IMG/VR virus record: IMGVR_UViG_3300025806_000200
Span: 1-25,732 of that record
Reading direction: 5' to 3' (one strand)
Length of the DNA: 25,732 bases
DNA from: a virus
Part shown: positions 3,992-13,215 of the stretch, piece after piece
Numbering within the stretch: position 1 is the stretch's first letter
How the letters are laid out: each line of letters starts with the position of its first letter
The notes under the pieces: model-generated
What the model was told of the DNA's origin: nothing
What the model saw: the letters and a program-made list of their open reading frames with translations, nothing else
Database searches by the model: none
Position numbers and translations under genes: made by a program

Positions 3992-4304
3992 AATAACAGA
4001 AGAACAAGAGATACTCTATGGTAAGCTAATGAAAGCATCAGCTATTGCTATGGGTCAGCAACCTAAACTACCTCATCTTAATGTATATGAAGCACAAAAT
4101 AAAAGGTTTGAAGGTAGGAGAAAAGAAGCATATGATATTATAAAAGAGTTTGGTCCATTAACAGTACTTGAGTTGCAAAATTTTATGGGTTTCCAAACTA
4201 TTGAAGGTGCAAAAAATATTATACATAAATTAACAAGGCAAAATAGAATTAAAAGATTACCTAATCTAAATAAAAATAGATATGTTTTATATGAAGTAAA
4301 GTGA
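3966..4304 (+). CDS. Winged-helix-like protein of unknown function
   Basis: This is a 112-residue product from ATG 3966, chosen over the in-frame ATG 3930 because GGAGAAAG lies immediately upstream and the longer start would overlap the nuclease more. The C-terminal half (about 52-112) looks like a winged helix: RRKEAYDIIKEFGPLTVLELQNFMG, then the recognition-type helix EGAKNIIHKLTRQNRIKRL, then a beta wing NKNRYVLYEV. The N-terminal half is a charged helical region. It is probably a DNA-binding regulator. Its TGA overlaps the next ATG (4302-4306). Confidence 0.65.
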   Translation: MKATVQKFKITEEQEILYGKLMKASAIAMGQQPKLPHLNVYEAQNKRFEGRRKEAYDIIKEFGPLTVLELQNFMGFQTIEGAKNIIHKLTRQNRIKRLPNLNKNRYVLYEVK

Positions 4305-5881: not shown

Positions 5882-6439
5882 TCAATTTCCTACTAATGGA
5901 TTGTCTAATGCTTCCTGTAATCTTTCACTTAATCTATCTTCTAATTGTTTTAGGTTAGAATCAATGCGCTCCTCTGTATCTCTCATTGTATCACGCACAT
6001 CCTTTTCTGTTTCTCTATTCAAAGATTCTATTTCTCGCAAAGAAGAATTAACATCTTTATTTAATTGATTCATTTCAGTTAACGTATTCTCTACCATTAA
6101 ATCTATTGATGCTTGTGTGTCTTTAATTCTATCAGAGGATTTCTCTACCTTATTATCTATCTTATCTATGTAACCTTCTAGCTTTAGTATATCATCACGC
6201 AGATTATTCTTGATGTCTTTGCTGTACTCCAACGCACTATCTAGTTTTGTTTGGATTAGTGTGTTCTGAGATTTAATAGCACTAATATTTATATTCTGTA
6301 TGATGCCTTTCATATCCATGTAGTCTTTGTAAACTTCAAAGCCGCCCCATAATCCACCGCCAAGTGCCGAAACAATTGGAACAAGTAACATTAACTTGCC
6401 ACCTTTTATCTTTGCTCCTGCTATTTCTACTTCAGCCAT
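5882..6439 (-). CDS. Membrane-anchored coiled-coil protein
   Basis: 185 residues. After a short N-terminal stretch, residues about 15-34 (LMLLVPIVSALGGGLWGGFE) form one membrane span. The rest is charged and helical, with strong heptad character (about 45-175), rich in Asp, Glu, Lys, Asn and Ile, ending in a Leu/Arg-rich helix. The layout, one N-terminal span and a long coiled coil, resembles i-spanins and other phage membrane-tether proteins. No spanin-type partner pair is proven, but a lipoprotein gene lies directly upstream. The orientation of the soluble part is not decided by the sequence. Confidence 0.7.
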   Translation of the reverse strand: MAEVEIAGAKIKGGKLMLLVPIVSALGGGLWGGFEVYKDYMDMKGIIQNINISAIKSQNTLIQTKLDSALEYSKDIKNNLRDDILKLEGYIDKIDNKVEKSSDRIKDTQASIDLMVENTLTEMNQLNKDVNSSLREIESLNRETEKDVRDTMRDTEERIDSNLKQLEDRLSERLQEALDNPLVGN

Positions 6440-6448
6440 ATCACACTC

Positions 6449-6856
6449 CTAGTTTTCAAATGATAAACTTCTTAATTGATTAATTTCTTTTTGTAACTTT
6501 AATACTTCTAGTTCTTTCTTTTGTAACTCTAGTTCATACAATCTATTACAATCTATTCTTGATCTAGCCCTAGCACCAAGAGGTATTGTTATCCTGCTGT
6601 ACACACCTATGTCACCAGTTTGTTTATTATTATCTGCTCCTTGTATAATACCTGTAACACCAAACTCCCAGTTAGTTGCTGACCCTATAGCATTAGAACA
6701 ATCTAATTCCCCTGCTCTAAACTTATCTGCTTGAAAGTTTTGACTTGCGTTAGGTAAAGAAAGATTCAAAGAGTTAGATGCAGAATCAGCTAAAGCTATT
6801 ATTGCAGTACAACCAGAGATAAATAATACTAATACTATTAATAATACTATTCTCAT
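6449..6856 (-). CDS. Putative phage lipoprotein
   Basis: 135 residues with a lipoprotein signal: a basic start (MR), a hydrophobic core (IVLLIVLVLF) and the lipobox ISGC (Cys16). Serine and alanine-rich sequence follows. The middle (EFGVTGIIQG and GDIGVYSRITIPLGA) looks beta-rich, and the last 35 residues form a charged helix (YELELQKKELEVLKLQKEINQL). Two further cysteines (DC at residues 52-53 and 102-103) may pair. The family appears in marine phage genomes as far as I recall, without known function. Together with the membrane coiled-coil gene 9 nt downstream, a spanin-like pair is one possible reading, although this lipoprotein is larger than a typical o-spanin. Confidence 0.7.
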   Translation of the reverse strand: MRIVLLIVLVLFISGCTAIIALADSASNSLNLSLPNASQNFQADKFRAGELDCSNAIGSATNWEFGVTGIIQGADNNKQTGDIGVYSRITIPLGARARSRIDCNRLYELELQKKELEVLKLQKEINQLRSLSFEN

Positions 6857-7227
6857 TTTTTTATCTTAGAACATATGCGTGAAGCTATCAATGTAACCTG
6901 CTCTTTACCTTTAAATACTTTTGATTCAGTGCAAATGTAAACAGCTTTAGCTATGTCTCTTGATCTTATGTACACATCAAATAATTTTTTCTTATTATAT
7001 CCTACCTCTATTATGTTAGTAGTAGATGCAAACGGTACTGGCTTCCAATTATTGGTAAAGACACCTATCTCATACCAAGACACATCACTTCTGCGATTAA
7101 ATATTTTTAAGTTTGCTACTGATACACCCTCCACATAAGACGACTCCAGTTTTGGATAAGCTGGTGTCATCTCATGTGCGTGTAACGAACTACACAAACA
7201 TACAGCTATTATTACTTTGCTATACAT
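6853..7227 (-). CDS. Exported beta-rich protein, possible periplasmic-chaperone-like fold
   Basis: 124 residues with a signal peptide (MYSKVIIAVCLCSSLHA, cleavage near residue 17). The mature part alternates short hydrophobic strands (VSVANLKIFNRR, WYEIGVFTNNW, PVPFAS, IIEVGYNKKKLFDVYIRS, AVYICTES), which suggests an Ig-like sandwich. The pattern resembles the first domain of pilus chaperones, but no family signature is certain. Two cysteines, in YIC and RICSK, could pair. Its ATG region overlaps the upstream pilin-like gene by 16 nt, and it overlaps the lipoprotein gene by 4 nt. Confidence 0.65.
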   Translation of the reverse strand: MYSKVIIAVCLCSSLHAHEMTPAYPKLESSYVEGVSVANLKIFNRRSDVSWYEIGVFTNNWKPVPFASTTNIIEVGYNKKKLFDVYIRSRDIAKAVYICTESKVFKGKEQVTLIASRICSKIKK

Positions 7228-7706
7228 TCCGCTACTATTAATGCTGTGTAGTTACCAGCAGGTAAGGACTTAGTGCTACCATATTGAGCAGTAGAAGCTA
7301 CAGTAAACCAAGTGCTACCAGCTAATGTTAAGTTAAACTCAGTTACATTATTGTAAGTAACCTTAGCCGCTTCGTATGCACTCATATCTGATACGCTTAC
7401 CTGTCCTACGACTGTACTACCTGTCCATGCTACTGCATCATTAAGTGTTGGACTAGATGAAAAACTATTAGGGTGTGTAAACTTAGCCTTATAATAATCT
7501 GCCTGGGCTACATCAATTCTAATTGAAGCTGGAACGCCACCATCTGCTGGTACTGTGGACAGCTTGTAAGGGAGGGGGTGTCCATAAACACCAGAGGTTT
7601 CTGTCCATACAGAACACTTGGGTTGTACTTGACCTGTAATGGGAGAATCAACTGCCATTGCAGGAGTTGCTGATAATAAAAATATTAATGGTACTATTTT
7701 TTTCAT
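7212..7706 (-). CDS. Exported pilin-like or coat-protein-U-like protein
   Basis: 164 residues with a clear signal peptide (MKKIVPLIFLLSATPAMA, cut after residue 18). The mature part is beta-rich and has one cysteine near each end (C31 in PKCSVW and C161 in AECIAK), as in spore-coat-U or fimbrial-type proteins where the first and last strands are disulfide-linked. Strand-like blocks include SIRIDVAQADYYKAKF, STVVGQVSVSDM, EFNLTLAGSTWFTVAS and GNYTALIVAE. The family link is a guess from the layout. An AGGA site precedes ATG 7706. It sits beside another exported beta-rich protein, hinting at a working pair. Confidence 0.65.
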   Translation of the reverse strand: MKKIVPLIFLLSATPAMAVDSPITGQVQPKCSVWTETSGVYGHPLPYKLSTVPADGGVPASIRIDVAQADYYKAKFTHPNSFSSSPTLNDAVAWTGSTVVGQVSVSDMSAYEAAKVTYNNVTEFNLTLAGSTWFTVASTAQYGSTKSLPAGNYTALIVAECIAK

Positions 7707-7714
7707 GTCATTTC

Positions 7715-8611
7715 CTAATCTTTATATTGTGATCTAACTATTCTTCTGTGGGATTTATCTTGTTTTAGATTTATTAACGCTGTGGCATTATCTTCTATGG
7801 TACTATCTACTAATTTAACTGTTTCTTCATACTTACCACCTTCTATAGTTGCACTATAATAACCATCTAATGTGCCAGCCGCAGCCATTTGCTGCATCAT
7901 TGCTAGTTGTTGTGTTGGATTTGCTATTTGTTCTGCCGCTCCTGCAACAGCTAATGCTTTTTCCATTTTTAATTCTTCTTGTTCTTCTTCTTCTTTCTTT
8001 TCTTTTGCAGCTTGTTCTTCTTCTTGTTCTTCTGTCTTACGATCTAGTTGATACTGAACCCATTCATCATAATAAGGATCATCTATTGCTGGTTCATTAT
8101 TAAGCAGATCATTGTCTAAAAGATATTGATACAAAGCATCTTTAAAGTTAGGGCAGCTAGGATCAGAGAGTGGAATATAACAGGGATCAAACTTATAATT
8201 GTACGCTACTATTACATCGCTTAGTGTTGCACCATTACTAGCTGTAATACTTCCTTTTCCCCACTTAGTGCCAAGAGAAGGATTAACAACATCAAATCCT
8301 ATCTTAGTATTGCTTGGTAACTGATCCCAATTATCGTGTCTTTCATATATATTACCAGTTCCGGTGCTGTTTTTATTTACAATAGAAACTGTAGAATCTG
8401 CACTGCTACTTTTATTTATTGTATACTTATGAAATATGCCTTGAATTTCTAACCCTGCTTCGGGTGGCAACACATCTGTCATATTCCAGGTGTGTTTATT
8501 CTTAGCTACATTGTTTGTTCTTCCGTATGTATAATCAGAGTGTAAACAAGAGGGCCAAGAAAAGACCAATAACAGCGCCAGCACCTGTTGCGGTGTTCTT
8601 AGTATCATCAT
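7715..8611 (-). CDS. Exported protein with a charged helical region, unknown function
   Basis: 298 residues from ATG 8611. This start is preferred over in-frame upstream positions because an AAAGGAGG site ends 6 nt before it. Residues 1-25 look like a signal peptide (TPQQVLALLLVFSWPSCLHS). The region up to about 155 is beta-rich and contains a CYIPLSDPSCPNF motif. Residues about 195-225 are almost pure Glu/Lys/Gln and helical, followed by an Ala/Met/Gln-rich helix. The C-terminus (GGKYEETVKLVDS) resembles conserved ends of other phage proteins in this neighbourhood. Its first 77 nt overlap the previous gene in another frame. Confidence 0.65.
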   Translation of the reverse strand: MMILRTPQQVLALLLVFSWPSCLHSDYTYGRTNNVAKNKHTWNMTDVLPPEAGLEIQGIFHKYTINKSSSADSTVSIVNKNSTGTGNIYERHDNWDQLPSNTKIGFDVVNPSLGTKWGKGSITASNGATLSDVIVAYNYKFDPCYIPLSDPSCPNFKDALYQYLLDNDLLNNEPAIDDPYYDEWVQYQLDRKTEEQEEEQAAKEKKEEEEQEELKMEKALAVAGAAEQIANPTQQLAMMQQMAAAGTLDGYYSATIEGGKYEETVKLVDSTIEDNATALINLKQDKSHRRIVRSQYKD

Positions 8612-9140
8612 CCCATTCCTCCTTTGCTCCTGTCTTAGCATCAGGAACTAAGTGTGGGTTATTTTTCCATGCGTCTTTAGCTGGCTGCCCTACAAGACCA
8701 TCAAATGGACACGGCGTTCCAGCATTCATCATGCTTTCAAACACACGCTTGTCCATACAAAGTACGCTAACTGCTGCAACTTTCATTCCCATATCATAGA
8801 GAACTTTAGCATTCTTTAATCTTTCACAATTTAAATCTCTTGTTGTAGTACCAACTGAGATACCTAGTATTTGTGTTTGAACTGCACCTGACATACCTAC
8901 TGTGCATAAGTCTGAGTTAGAATTATTTATTGTAGGTGACATAGCTGAGGGTGGAGGTGACTTAACTGTAGTTTCTGAACTTAAAGTAGAGTTAACAGAA
9001 GATGTTGTATTACTATTAGTCTCTATACAATTAGCATTAGTAGTGCTGTCACACCCTTCAGCGTAAGCCATAGGAACAAGCACTATAAAAAATAATAATG
9101 CTAAGAATGCCCAACCTATATATGTAAAAGCTTTTACCAT
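8535..9140 (-). CDS. Exported phage protein with N-terminal signal and C-terminal membrane segment
   Basis: 201 residues. A signal peptide at 1-27 (WAFLALLFFIVLVPMAYA) is followed by a Ser/Thr/Asn-rich linker and a conserved-looking core from about 62 to 155 (PPPSAMSPTINNSNSDLC, then AVQTQILGISVGTTTRDLNCERLKNAKVLYDMGMKVAAV, then AGTPCPF). Six cysteines lie in the exported part. The last 18 residues (GAGAVIGLFLALLFTL) form a second hydrophobic segment. The core family recurs in phage genomes; I know of no established function. The stop of the upstream gene and this start overlap by 1 nt. A cell-envelope role is inferred. Confidence 0.7.
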   Translation of the reverse strand: MVKAFTYIGWAFLALLFFIVLVPMAYAEGCDSTTNANCIETNSNTTSSVNSTLSSETTVKSPPPSAMSPTINNSNSDLCTVGMSGAVQTQILGISVGTTTRDLNCERLKNAKVLYDMGMKVAAVSVLCMDKRVFESMMNAGTPCPFDGLVGQPAKDAWKNNPHLVPDAKTGAKEEWDDDTKNTATGAGAVIGLFLALLFTL

Positions 9141-9385
9141 TAAGACGCAGTGTAACCTTTACCTGCGTTAATTGCATTGGTAGTAGCTGTCATAGACTCG
9201 CTACCCCAGTCTGACTTAGCTTTCATCAGCTCAAGGTGTGCTACATTTCTATCTACACAGTCTTGTCTTTCTTCTTTTGCTTCATCAGCCATACTGTTAC
9301 CAGCTATTACCGCAGTAATAAGGTCTATTGAGTGACCCATTGCTGTGTAGTCTTGTGCTAATTCTTCTGTTGTTCTATCTGCCAT
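9140..9385 (-). CDS. Small helical protein next to the tail fibre gene
   Basis: 81 residues, soluble and helical (TTEELAQDYTAMGHSIDLITAVIAG, then RQDCVDRNVAHLELMKAK, then MTATTNAINAGKGY). The NVAHLELM.K plus AINAGK.Y pattern recurs beside tail-fibre genes in podoviruses as I recall, with unknown function; a fibre-associated or assembly role is possible. It starts 6 nt after the fibre stop, with an AAGGA site within the end of the fibre gene. Confidence 0.65.
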   Translation of the reverse strand: MADRTTEELAQDYTAMGHSIDLITAVIAGNSMADEAKEERQDCVDRNVAHLELMKAKSDWGSESMTATTNAINAGKGYTAS

Positions 9386-9390
9386 TTTAT

Positions 9391-12300
9391 TTATCCTTCT
9401 AGTGTTGCTATGCGAGCGAGTGCCGCATCTAATTTTGTTGATAGTTCTTGTACTGCTTTGGTTAATACAGGTATTAAAGCAGTTTCGCCTACTTCTTGCT
9501 GACCTGTAGGTAACTCATCCCACATAGTAAATCCGTCAGCTATTTCACTGTGAGCATCTATAGTCGCTTTAACTTCTTGTGCTATAAATCCGTGATTTGT
9601 TTTAGCATTTTTATATACGTCAGTAGACCCTTCTTCATAACCTTTAAAATCTAAAGGTAAATCACCTTTGTTTTTATATTTAAAAGTTCTAGGTCTAAGG
9701 TCGTTAATAAATGAAAGACCTGCTGTAGCATCAGTAATATCTTTTTTTACACGCTCATCTGAAACTGTTGACCATGTTGTATTACCGTGTGCTGCTCTTA
9801 TATCAGAACCAGATTCACCTATTGTTGTGTATCCTGCTACTGCACTAATACCATTACCAAAACCATTTGCATAACTTCCATCTGTAGCCGCACAATCTGC
9901 ACCGTTTCCAACAATAACATTTCCACTACCTGTTTGATTATTAGCACCTGTGGTGTGCCCTATAAACGTATTAGAATTTCCATCTACAGTTGCACCACCT
10001 GCGGCTAACCCTACTAAAACATTACTAGCTCCAGTCGTAATAGCATCGCCAGTTTCAACTCCAATAGCTACGTTGCTAGCTGCTGTAGTACAAGAGGCAA
10101 GAGCAGCAACTCCTAATGCTGTATTGTTTTGCCCAGTTGTAAGCGCACCTCCTGCATTGTACCCCACAATCGCATTCCAACTACCTGTCGTAATTGCATC
10201 ACCTGCTAATCCACCGATAAGGGTGTTTTGTACGGCTGTGGTTACGGATAATCCTGCATTCCAACCTACAGCAGTGTTGTAAGTATTAGTAGCTGACGTA
10301 AAGTTTTGTGCGGCTAAAGCGGCTACCCCAATAGCAACAGATCTATCACCTAAAGTATCTGCTGAAAGAGCAAAAGATCCAACAACAGTATTGTCATCAG
10401 CGTTAGTTAGTGCGTCACCTGCTCCAGCGCCAATAAGTACATTTTGAGTACCTGTGGTTACTGATAGTCCAGCGTTATATCCTACTGCTGTGTTGTAAAC
10501 ATTAGTAGCTGTTGTGAAGTTTTGCGTGCCTAAAGCATTTCTACCAATACCTACACTTCTACTACCTTTAGTATCAGCTTCTACTGCATTTTTACCTATT
10601 GCTACATTGTCAGAACCAACAGTCAAAACACCTAAAGCATCATTTCCAAGGGCAGTATTCTGACCCCCTGTCGTAACAGCATCTCCTGCTGCTGCACCGA
10701 TAAACGTATTCTGAGTACCTGTAGTTACTGCTGCACCTGCTAAATAACCCATCATAGTGTTATCTGCACCTGTGGTAATTGAGTCACCTGAGTACGAACC
10801 AATAGCAATATTATGATCACCTTCTGTTACATCGTTAAGTGCGTCATGCCCAACACCAATATTATCTGCACCTGTAGTGTTATTTTCTAAGGCACCACTA
10901 CCAATTGCTATGTTTCTACTAGCTGTAGTATTTGCCCCTAAAGCACTTTCGCCAACTGCAACGTTAGAAGTTCCAGTCGTAATTGCATCACCAGCAGAAG
11001 CGCCAATAAGGGTGTTGTTTACGCCCGTACTCATAGCCCTGCCAGAATTATAACCAACGGCTGTATTGTTACCATCAGCACCTGCATTTAAATTCTTTAA
11101 GGTACTCCATCCAATAGCAGTATTATTACCATGTGCATCTTCTGATGCTAATGCGGCATAACCCACAGCCACATTGTTATCACCTGTTGTTATATCATTA
11201 CCTGCTTCGTCACCCACAACCACGTTGTAGTTACCGCCAGATGCTATGTTAGCACCTGCGTTGACACCTGCTCTAAAGTTAGATGTACCTGATGTGTTTG
11301 TCTGTAGCGTACCGCCTGTAGATGCGATAATTATATTACCACTTGAATCTATATGTAAACTTTGAGTAGGACTTTCTGCGCCATCGGCAGAAGTTGAAAA
11401 AACTAACTCTGTTGGCATATCACCACTACCTGGAGTACCATTTACTATAGCTGTTATTCTTGCTCCTTCTGCAAAATCAGTGCCATCGTTACCAAAAAAA
11501 CGTATTCTACCTAACTCGTCATTATTTTGAACAACAGTATCACCACCAATAGTACCACTTCTACTTTTATGGAAAACAGTTGAAGCAGCATTTACATCAG
11601 CAGAAAATCTAGCCAAACCTATAGAGCTTGAATTGTAAGTTGTACCTATTTCTTGAAGAGCAAAGGCACTAGAAACAGAGCCATCATTTGCATTGCTATG
11701 ACCTATTACAACCGCATCATTACCACCATCAACAAATAACATATTAGCATTGCCATTTGATTCAACACGGAAGTCTACATCAGCAGACGCCTCGTTAAAT
11801 ACTGCTCCACCGTCTTGAGTTAAAGCACCATCAATGTCCACCACGTCTAGGTTAGCTGTGCCGTCTACGTCTATGTCACCTGAAATGTCTAGTGAAGCAA
11901 ATACAGATGTGCCTGTGCTTGTTACTGTGCCAGTTACGTCTATACCTGTGTTAGTAGTAGCTAGTTTTTTAGCACCGTTATAATATATATCAACTGCACC
12001 ATTTTCAGTTGCATTTAACATATATTCAGTAACATTTGAACTAAATAGCCCAACTGCACTACCACAAATTGCTAACGGGCCAGCACCAGTATCTTTAATA
12101 AAACTTGCTGGACTTCCACTTGGATCATGAAAGATTTCTAAATCTCCACTAGCACCAAATGTTATTTTACCACTGTCAGGTAATCCTAAAGAAGAAACGT
12201 TAGGATTAGCACCGCTACCTGCTAATGATGCCATGTCAGCAATAACAGAGCTAGTAGCAAGTAAACTTAAATCTTCTACAATTGCACTTGTTGCTAATAA

Positions 12301-13215
12301 ATTTAGGTCAGTAACTATGTCGCTTGTTGCTAAAGTATTTAAATCAGAAACAATATCAGAAGTAGCTAAAATATTTATATCGCTAACTATATCTGAAGTA
12401 GCTAAAGTATTTAAATCAGAAATAACATCTGAAGTAGCTAACAAAGCCATGTCAGCAACAACTTCACTTGTCCCAAGTAAATTCATATTACCAACAACTT
12501 CGCTCGTTCCTAGCAAAGCCATATCTGCTCTAACATCAGAGGGAGCAAGAAGCGCAATATTAGATGCTGCACCTGCAACTGCTGTTACATTGCCAGCAAT
12601 ACCAGCAACCGTTGTTACATTACTAGCTATACCAGCAACGGTTGTAACATTAGCTGCTATACCTGCTGTTGTATTAATATTAGCTGTAATTGCAGAAAGA
12701 GAGTTAACATTAGCTATAGTAGGGCCAACTTCTGCTGCACCAGTGCTAGCATTAAAGCCTAAAACAGTACCTTTTCTTACTGCAACAAGAGGTAATTCCA
12801 TACTTACTGCTGTATCGGAATCTGCTAAGTGTAATGCTCGATCAATCGTATCGTCATTGTCAGCTTGAATAGCAACAAATCTATCTAGCTCAGTGTTAAG
12901 AGTATCTATGGCAAATGAACCTGATACTGGAAAGTCTGTTGTTCTCGATAAAGCAATGCTTCTTGTAATAACAACAGTGCTTCCACCACTTGCACCAGTT
13001 ACACTATTACCAGATGTAGTATTTATAGTGCCAGTAGAACCATTACCACCTGATATTGTGTAGTGTGTTGTTAATGTTTTTTTAGTACCATCTACATAAA
13101 AGTTAAGATCAGCTTCGGCAAAGAACTCAAATGGCACAGTAAATGCTGTCTGAGTTGCACCTTCATTTACCGTATATGATATACGCGGTGTATTGTCTGA
13201 TAAACTAATAGTCAT
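9391..13215 (-). CDS. Long tail fibre: T7-type N-terminus, YadA-like repeats, S74 chaperone
   Basis: 1274 residues, the host-recognition fibre. Residues 1-140 match the T7 gp17-type tail attachment domain (ISYTVNEGATQTAFTVPFEF near the start). Residues 178-220 are 10-residue repeats (VTTVAGIASN), and 222-334 are about nine 12-residue repeats (LLATSDIVSDLN type) that likely form a trimeric stalk. Residues about 660-1105 carry many GxNNTAVG / TTGTQNTFIGAxAGDA units like the left-handed head of YadA adhesins. Residues 1149-1274 are a peptidase_S74 intramolecular chaperone (SDERVKKDI, with predicted self-cleavage before S1152; HGFIAQEV later). The AAAGAGG site precedes ATG. The C-terminal 126 residues are expected to be released after trimer folding. 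Confidence 0.9.
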   Translation of the reverse strand: MTISLSDNTPRISYTVNEGATQTAFTVPFEFFAEADLNFYVDGTKKTLTTHYTISGGNGSTGTINTTSGNSVTGASGGSTVVITRSIALSRTTDFPVSGSFAIDTLNTELDRFVAIQADNDDTIDRALHLADSDTAVSMELPLVAVRKGTVLGFNASTGAAEVGPTIANVNSLSAITANINTTAGIAANVTTVAGIASNVTTVAGIAGNVTAVAGAASNIALLAPSDVRADMALLGTSEVVGNMNLLGTSEVVADMALLATSDVISDLNTLATSDIVSDINILATSDIVSDLNTLATSDIVTDLNLLATSAIVEDLSLLATSSVIADMASLAGSGANPNVSSLGLPDSGKITFGASGDLEIFHDPSGSPASFIKDTGAGPLAICGSAVGLFSSNVTEYMLNATENGAVDIYYNGAKKLATTNTGIDVTGTVTSTGTSVFASLDISGDIDVDGTANLDVVDIDGALTQDGGAVFNEASADVDFRVESNGNANMLFVDGGNDAVVIGHSNANDGSVSSAFALQEIGTTYNSSSIGLARFSADVNAASTVFHKSRSGTIGGDTVVQNNDELGRIRFFGNDGTDFAEGARITAIVNGTPGSGDMPTELVFSTSADGAESPTQSLHIDSSGNIIIASTGGTLQTNTSGTSNFRAGVNAGANIASGGNYNVVVGDEAGNDITTGDNNVAVGYAALASEDAHGNNTAIGWSTLKNLNAGADGNNTAVGYNSGRAMSTGVNNTLIGASAGDAITTGTSNVAVGESALGANTTASRNIAIGSGALENNTTGADNIGVGHDALNDVTEGDHNIAIGSYSGDSITTGADNTMMGYLAGAAVTTGTQNTFIGAAAGDAVTTGGQNTALGNDALGVLTVGSDNVAIGKNAVEADTKGSRSVGIGRNALGTQNFTTATNVYNTAVGYNAGLSVTTGTQNVLIGAGAGDALTNADDNTVVGSFALSADTLGDRSVAIGVAALAAQNFTSATNTYNTAVGWNAGLSVTTAVQNTLIGGLAGDAITTGSWNAIVGYNAGGALTTGQNNTALGVAALASCTTAASNVAIGVETGDAITTGASNVLVGLAAGGATVDGNSNTFIGHTTGANNQTGSGNVIVGNGADCAATDGSYANGFGNGISAVAGYTTIGESGSDIRAAHGNTTWSTVSDERVKKDITDATAGLSFINDLRPRTFKYKNKGDLPLDFKGYEEGSTDVYKNAKTNHGFIAQEVKATIDAHSEIADGFTMWDELPTGQQEVGETALIPVLTKAVQELSTKLDAALARIATLEG
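9901..11238 (-). repeat. YadA-head-like coding repeats in the tail fibre
   Basis: Fibre residues 660-1105 consist of degenerate 14-20 residue units with the core N.A.G..A (examples NNVAVGYAAL, QNTFIGAAAG, DNTMMGYLAG). The units differ at many positions, so this is a protein-level repeat array rather than a fresh DNA tandem repeat. In bacterial trimeric autotransporters such units form a beta-roll head that binds surfaces. Confidence 0.85.
12214..12552 (-). repeat. 12-residue (36-nt) repeats in the fibre stalk
   Basis: Fibre residues 222-334 hold nine clear copies of a 12-residue unit (consensus LLATSDIVSDLN) plus a degenerate tenth. The central copies (residues about 258-306) are nearly identical at the protein level. 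The period and the Leu/Val/Ile spacing suit a trimeric stalk. Such arrays can change copy number by recombination. Confidence 0.85.

Follow-up and report, generated by a model that had tools for sequence, protein, structure and literature searches.

How does a phage lineage change the end of its tail fibre that binds the host and keep the neighbouring genes? The question is raised by a 25.7-kb stretch of viral DNA, the IMG/VR virus record IMGVR_UViG_3300025806_000200 (positions 1-25,732, hereafter the window), which is from an uncultured marine virus of bacteria, a T7-like podovirus. Its fibre gene lies at 9391-13215 on the minus strand, as do all features described below, and encodes 1274 amino acids (aa); the first frame of the plus strand is full of stops over this range. 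The original prediction that a T7-type base, 12-residue stalk repeats, units like those of the YadA head and an S74 end are joined in one protein was confirmed here, although a 10-residue repeat block and a middle part of 313 residues had been missed. Our analyses suggest that the head of this fibre and the small gene behind it, orf81, are exchanged between relatives as a cassette.

Exchange of the fibre head between close relatives

Compared with one relative, L006 (relatives carry our own L-numbers), the window keeps an identity of 94-100% per 200-nucleotide (nt) step over the 3800 nt ahead of the gene and as far as gene nt 600. By gapped alignment the identity is 76, 59 and 80% in the three 100-nt steps of gene nt 601-900, a stretch with the last of the 10-residue repeats and the initial stalk units, and 94% at 901-1000; an earlier ungapped comparison with 65 and 87% in two stalk windows was superseded by these values (59-94% per 100 nt). 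Near gene nt 1026, 12 residues past the last stalk repeat, the similarity breaks off, and the head of L006 is unrelated to that of the window. Nucleotide identity places this left edge of the exchanged segment in the linker at the end of the stalk (residues 331-343; 12187..12225). Similarity to L006 comes back at nt 4151, 326 nt past the fibre end and inside the next but one gene, with 87.5-98.5% identity per window from nt 4300 on. The right edge of the exchanged segment (9065..9144) is seen in three relatives, homology resuming at 9144 in L005, 9143 in L009 and 9065 in L006. L009 is 94.7% identical to the window in the base and 96% in the downstream genes, but does not share its head. The gp16-like gene before the L009 fibre is only distantly related (25-40% in protein), and because its base is 95% identical the base itself also moves.

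Between the window and 66 distinct stalk-bearing relatives, chained nucleotide homology with gaps of up to 90 nt never extended past residue 343. The 65 closed distal parts formed 23 clusters. There were 42 pairs with bases at least 90% identical, which are not independent of one another: distal parts belonged to different clusters in 16 of them, 10 with the same unit count, and to the same cluster in 26, five with a different count. Head replacement is a larger change than a change in repeat number. In four further relatives (L014, L016, L018 and L051) the same base is carried by a short fibre of about 510 aa followed by several small genes, and in L014 and L051 S74 is matched outside this short protein, which looks like a split of the fibre.

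A small gene linked to the head

The gene orf81 (9140..9385, 81 aa) starts 5 nt after the fibre stop and belongs to an unnamed family tied to this head type. A Shine-Dalgarno-like AGAAGGA (9394..9400) lies in the last codons of the fibre gene (Leu-Glu-Gly-stop), 8 nt before the next ATG, and is the same in several relatives; 17 of the 49 distinct fibre ends in the first scan were Leu-Glu-Gly, 13 of these 17 with GAAGGATAA.

In an initial set of loci, all 23 records with an orf81 homologue, the window's record and repeat contigs included, had both a head and an S74 match. Within the base family, taken as 68 distinct closed fibres with at least 400 nt downstream, orf81 was present within 700 nt of all five fibres bearing the head (BLAST E<1e-20) and of none of the 63 others (Fisher p 1e-7, not corrected for relatedness and with an orf81 profile built partly from the positives). 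Six of these 63 head-less fibres showed a weak S74 match, five of the six also a weak head match. From a scan of the viral collection with the orf81 alignment as query, the best 80 of at least 581 relatives were kept, namely those closest to the window's orf81; 49 of the 80 loci had at least 1.5 kb upstream and were used, 31 were dropped, and some contigs were shared with earlier scans. The head profile was found upstream in 49 of these 49 testable loci and the S74 profile in 48. Measured from the stop codon of the S74 frame, orf81 began 3-24 nt downstream in 44 of the 48 and 78 to 1831 nt downstream in the remaining four. A comparison set of 36 loci with the same base included 5 with the head profile and 10 with the S74 profile. 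The reverse direction was looser: 17 of 25 distinct fibres with head and S74 had an orf81 family match within 2.5 kb, the match in L024 being partial.

The linkage extends to cultured phages, where orf81 was found at E<=0.01 in 6 of 50,697 records, all six with the same head type and with orf81 close to the fibre: the Pelagibacter phages HTVC111P and HTVC112P, the Roseobacter phages CRP-1, CRP-7 and CRP-831, and the Methylophilales phage Venkman. A gene annotated as glycosyl transferase lies between fibre and orf81 in HTVC111P and HTVC112P, and orf81 stands ahead of the fibre in CRP-1. The fibre S74 scored above the Pfam cut-off in four of the six, just below it in CRP-1 and not at all in CRP-831, and none of the six gave a Pfam T7-tail match at E<=0.1. 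No confident match to the orf81 family was obtained in Pfam (16 members, best 0.0071 in one), PHROGs (best 0.041) or the PDB (best 0.26).

Two local arrangements around orf81 were also observed. In L024, a small membrane-like protein encoded downstream of the fibre begins with the ~18 N-terminal residues of the orf81 family but is otherwise unrelated to it, as might be left by recombination within the orf81 start. A gene of 212-213 aa lies between the head-and-S74 fibre and orf81 in L031, L039 and L043, and its product presumably resembles phage 2OG-Fe oxygenase-type proteins.

Domain architecture of the fibre

The head covers residues 657-1091 (9943..11247) and consists of about 25 units mostly 17 residues apart, which were placed in register by hand; the automatic pattern alone caught 14 of the 25. 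Period-17 identity over residues 641-1150 was 0.31, against a mean of 0.11 and a maximum of 0.15 in 2000 shuffles. In its best part (residues 910-1059), the monomer model of the head showed mostly two short strands per 17-residue repeat, with a predicted local distance difference test (pLDDT) score of 62-88 per block, an arrangement that fits a beta-roll and does not prove it; the head is a putative trimeric beta-roll. Most VIA matches listed for this model were tailspikes or beta-helix enzymes (best AlgE4, Z 13.7, and Sf6 tailspike, Z 13.0); we attribute them to a general solenoid likeness of a model of middling quality. A PDB match of the head to the phage L Dec protein (E 0.0049) did not keep the repeat register and was rejected as composition, and the whole fibre protein compared directly with the PDB gave 0 matches. 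No C-terminal membrane anchor of trimeric autotransporters was among the Pfam matches at E<=1; the protein ends in S74.

Six exact eight-residue patterns for head units were used in one scan of the genome collection, and two loci came up. The first is a large surface protein of Testudinibacter aquarius (L162); the second, a contig in a flavobacterial metagenome-assembled genome, is phage-like by eye and has the same head, S74 and orf81. In the scanned part of the Testudinibacter protein, YadA_head matches 16 stretches (E 1e-36); the protein has units at a spacing of 16-17 between runs at a spacing of 14. A hidden Markov model of the window units scored best exactly in the 16-17 block (17.5, 12.1 and 10.7 bits per stretch), the next best score elsewhere in this protein being 6.9 bits and the scores in the shown shuffled copies (of 50) no higher than 0.6. 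Because the Testudinibacter protein interleaves the two spacings, both unit types can share one head. The phage-type block lies at about 4313-4660 of L162, inside the 14-residue YadA head array, and the protein has collagen-like repeats as well. The head units of the phage are YadA-like by motif, an N-x-A-[IV]-G-like core in tandem as in the Testudinibacter heads, and by context, not by Pfam; the YadA likeness first proposed is supported on these grounds despite the missing Pfam match. The additional statement that such units come from autotransporters of the hosts themselves was not borne out. The scan yielded only the Testudinibacter protein and the phage-like contig, a silence that is weak given six exact patterns. 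Among cultured phages, the best match to the gp12-like protein of the window is in Pelagibacter phage EXVC031P Hodr (38.5% over 60% of its length).

The C-terminal S74 intramolecular chaperone (residues 1152-1274; 9394..9762) was recognized by Pfam, alignment, Foldseek and profile. PF13884 scored 46 bits against a cut-off of 22 over residues 1152-1221 and was found at E<=0.1 in all 18 aligned members, among which, the window included, Ser, Asp, Arg and Lys are invariant. The S74 profile also matched the phage tail fibre 8jov (E 2.3e-4), and Foldseek gave the MyRF ICA and endosialidase chaperones with probability 0.66-1.0 and E no better than 0.087. The Ser-Lys dyad is intact (S1152 and K1157, Lys at +5). 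Passages of PMC8326128 give the same spacing for S911/K916 of endoNF and S587/K592 of MyRF and state that self-cleavage of both proteins needs this pair. For the window fibre a cut is predicted before S1152, and the S74 end of the original prediction is supported, with self-cleavage as a putative activity. Endosialidase and MyRF share with the window fibre PF13884, the Ser and Lys five apart, a C-terminal helix and a resemblance in fold; they differ in carrying a sialidase or a triple beta-helix ahead of S74, where the window fibre has its 17-residue repeat head.

At the other end of the protein, residues 1-165 (12721..13215) form the T7-type tail-attachment base, assigned by profile and Foldseek. 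The base profile (19 sequences, window included) matches the N-terminus of the Dpo31/Dpo36 tailspikes (8ck1, 28lx) at E 4.7e-13. Foldseek with the base model, which is most confident at residues 11-90 (pLDDT 69-90 per block), returned the fibre bases of LME-1, Carin 1, PhiM1, T7 and P-SCSP1u with probability 0.98-1.0, the best E being 7.5e-7 and that of T7 itself 1.2e-3. The Pfam T7-tail family PF03906 gave no match in the window protein at E<=1 and matched 3 of 17 aligned members (best E 6.6e-4). The 8ck1/28lx profile match, the Pfam matches of these three members and the predicted fold together support the T7 attachment domain proposed earlier.

Between base and head there are three parts. 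The 10-residue repeat block (residues 166-222; 12550..12720) has a period-10 identity of 0.61 over residues 165-218 and is predicted to be helical, being modelled at low confidence as a long helix. The stalk (residues 223-330; 12226..12549) has nine 12-residue repeats by periodicity, scoring matrix and model, in agreement with the about nine units previously placed at 12214-12552; a strict-pattern count had given 8 and was set aside, since it missed the first window unit and the scoring matrix gives 9. Period-12 identity over residues 215-340 was 0.58 (2000 shuffles: mean 0.10, maximum 0.21), the model has mostly one short helix per unit (pLDDT 56-72), and the Pfam family LED_rpt is found in 16 of 17 aligned members, with a score below the curated cut-off in the window. 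The central repeats, described earlier as near-identical, are so in protein and less so in DNA, where Tandem Repeats Finder rows over the stalk show 69-80% matches. The middle part (residues 344-656; 11248..12186), without strong repeats, shows weak periodicity only; it is present in some relatives and was not found in others, and the portion modelled, to residue 470, is of low confidence.

Gene order around the fibre

The minus-strand genes run from the major head protein through gp11-like, gp12-like, gp15-position and gp16-like genes to the fibre, with an exonuclease-like gene further on past it. The large gene between the gp12-like and gp16-like genes had no PHROG match and is gp15 by position only; the fibre gene follows the gp16-like gene, as gp17 does in the T7-like structural order. 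Downstream of the fibre and orf81 lie six small genes (5882-9140), 82-99% identical in L005, L006 and L009 and with no Pfam or NCBIfam match above cut-off. The N-termini encoded by 7212-7706, 6853-7227 and 6449-6856 resemble signal peptides or lipoprotein signals by eye, and at E<=0.01 nothing in the cultured-phage collection matched the product of 7212-7706. These small genes possibly encode secreted or envelope proteins produced in infection.

Discussion

We consider it highly probable that the window gene is the gp17-position tail fibre of a T7-like marine podovirus built from the following parts. The base would dock on the tail, and the repeat stalk would serve as spacer and trimer rod. 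The head of YadA-like units, a trimeric beta-roll, would be presented outwards as the host-binding part, and the C-terminal S74 would trimerise and fold it before cutting itself off ahead of Ser1152. Head and orf81 would be swapped together as a cassette by recombination between the stalk end and the downstream gene, with the repeat array as a second recombination place that may also alter the length of the array.

Several results weigh against parts of this picture. When the base was compared by profile with T7 gp17 alone, the probability was 2.7, and fold comparison was used in its place. Pfam YadA_head (PF05658) had no match in the window protein and matched 1 of 18 aligned members (E 0.0061), and the phage head unit has 17 residues rather than 14, the unit length of YadA heads as in the Testudinibacter arrays. 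The head model has a mean pLDDT of only 64, and no YadA structure was among the matches listed for it by Foldseek (50 of 90) or VIA (50 entries). The relatives are metagenomic contigs. Moreover, exchange is not confined to one place. Of 1999 stalk-bearing pairs, 34 were homologous to the gene end and 1305 lost nucleotide homology before the stalk, largely by divergence; among 104 closer pairs in which homology ended inside the gene, it ended before the stalk in 59, inside it in 3, at 0-20 residues after it in 14, at 20-60 in 7 and beyond in 21. Because only these 14 end within 20 residues after the stalk, the stalk end is one of several exchange places and not a universal one.

Could the apparent head swaps be metagenome assembly chimeras formed at repeats? 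The left junction does adjoin repeats, where short-read assemblies can misjoin. However, the window form was found again over 12.9 kb at 99.98% identity in a separate contig (L002), the L009 fibre is repeated identically in three more contigs and nearly so in L013, no tandem repeat was reported near the right-hand junctions, and orf81 tracks the head both across contigs and in the six cultured phages; chimeras are thus a very improbable source of the pattern. A second alternative makes slippage in the stalk repeats the adaptive element, altering repeat number, fibre length and host range, as the original prediction had envisaged for these repeats. Counting units in relatives, the check it had itself proposed, gave 0 to 20 among those with the same base, so the constant count that would have spoken against it was not found: there are 12 units in L003, L005 and L008 and 17 in L009 against nine in the window, with bases 95-98% identical (over the first 480 nt, window versus L003 95.6% and L006 versus L003 97.9%; L006 and L003 enter this comparison through their contigs L084 and L085). 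In addition, L109 lacks 72 nt in frame relative to L106, L153 and L098, with distal parts 92-99% identical. Copy-number variation therefore stands as a difference between relatives. Its proposed cause does not fare as well, in that nine units are kept in both the 99.98% identical contig and L006, and the clearest deletion, that of L109, looks like recombination within the array, because the unit adjoining it has diverged before identity returns, which slippage would not produce. Counts differ in 11 of the 42 close-base pairs, 6 of the 11 with a different distal part too, and in 10 further such pairs the distal part changed at the same count. On the L109 pattern we demoted slippage as the driver and regard it as improbable, and exchange of the head with orf81 is preferred.

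What orf81 contributes to that cassette also allows two readings. The likeliest role is that of a dedicated partner of this head. On balance we favour the view that orf81 founds an unnamed family of ~80-90 residues that would be a dedicated partner of YadA-type phage heads, translated right after the fibre from a ribosome-binding site in its last codons, acting on this head only as a second chaperone, cap or tip, and moving with it between unrelated phages. Alternatively, the repeat-rich head might be a spacer, with orf81 or another protein as the receptor-binding tip exposed after the S74 cut. This would suit both the adjacency in most loci and the absence, in the sets tested, of any orf81 without the head, but 8 of the 25 distinct head-and-S74 fibres have no orf81 family match within 2.5 kb, so that the head can do without it, and the family is short and lacks a confident structural match; we therefore think a separate tip unlikely and keep to orf81 as a partner of the head.

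The fibre belongs to a known design, and its architecture and variable distal part are already known. Passages of Mizuno et al. (2014; PMC3909814) describe pelagiphage fibres (clusters C24/C28) with a T7-like N-terminus and repeats, one of them with a C-terminal YadA domain; a figure legend there lists the S74 peptidase domain, and the distal part of the fibre under-recruits metagenomic reads. These passages give no exchange point, unit lengths or partner gene. YadA domains in pelagimyophages are mentioned in a passage of PMC7029224. The host-recognition modules of Alteromonas phages, as outlined in parts of PMC10579305, are likewise a fibre with a helper gene found in phages of distant families; the chaperone there is a separate gene, whereas the window has S74 within the protein and the small gene orf81. 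No full-length match to the window fibre was obtained, no single place in any of 156 records covering 80% of it. Neither the junction-level head swap nor the partner gene came up in searches of open-licence literature, in which orf81 has no name to search by. The linkage of orf81 to the head is new here.

At the level of single junctions, these findings show how the presumed host-binding end of the fibre can change in a marine podovirus lineage that keeps the neighbouring genes. They also make orf81 a directly testable candidate partner of YadA-like phage heads, one that is present as well in cultured phages of Pelagibacter, Roseobacter and Methylophilales.

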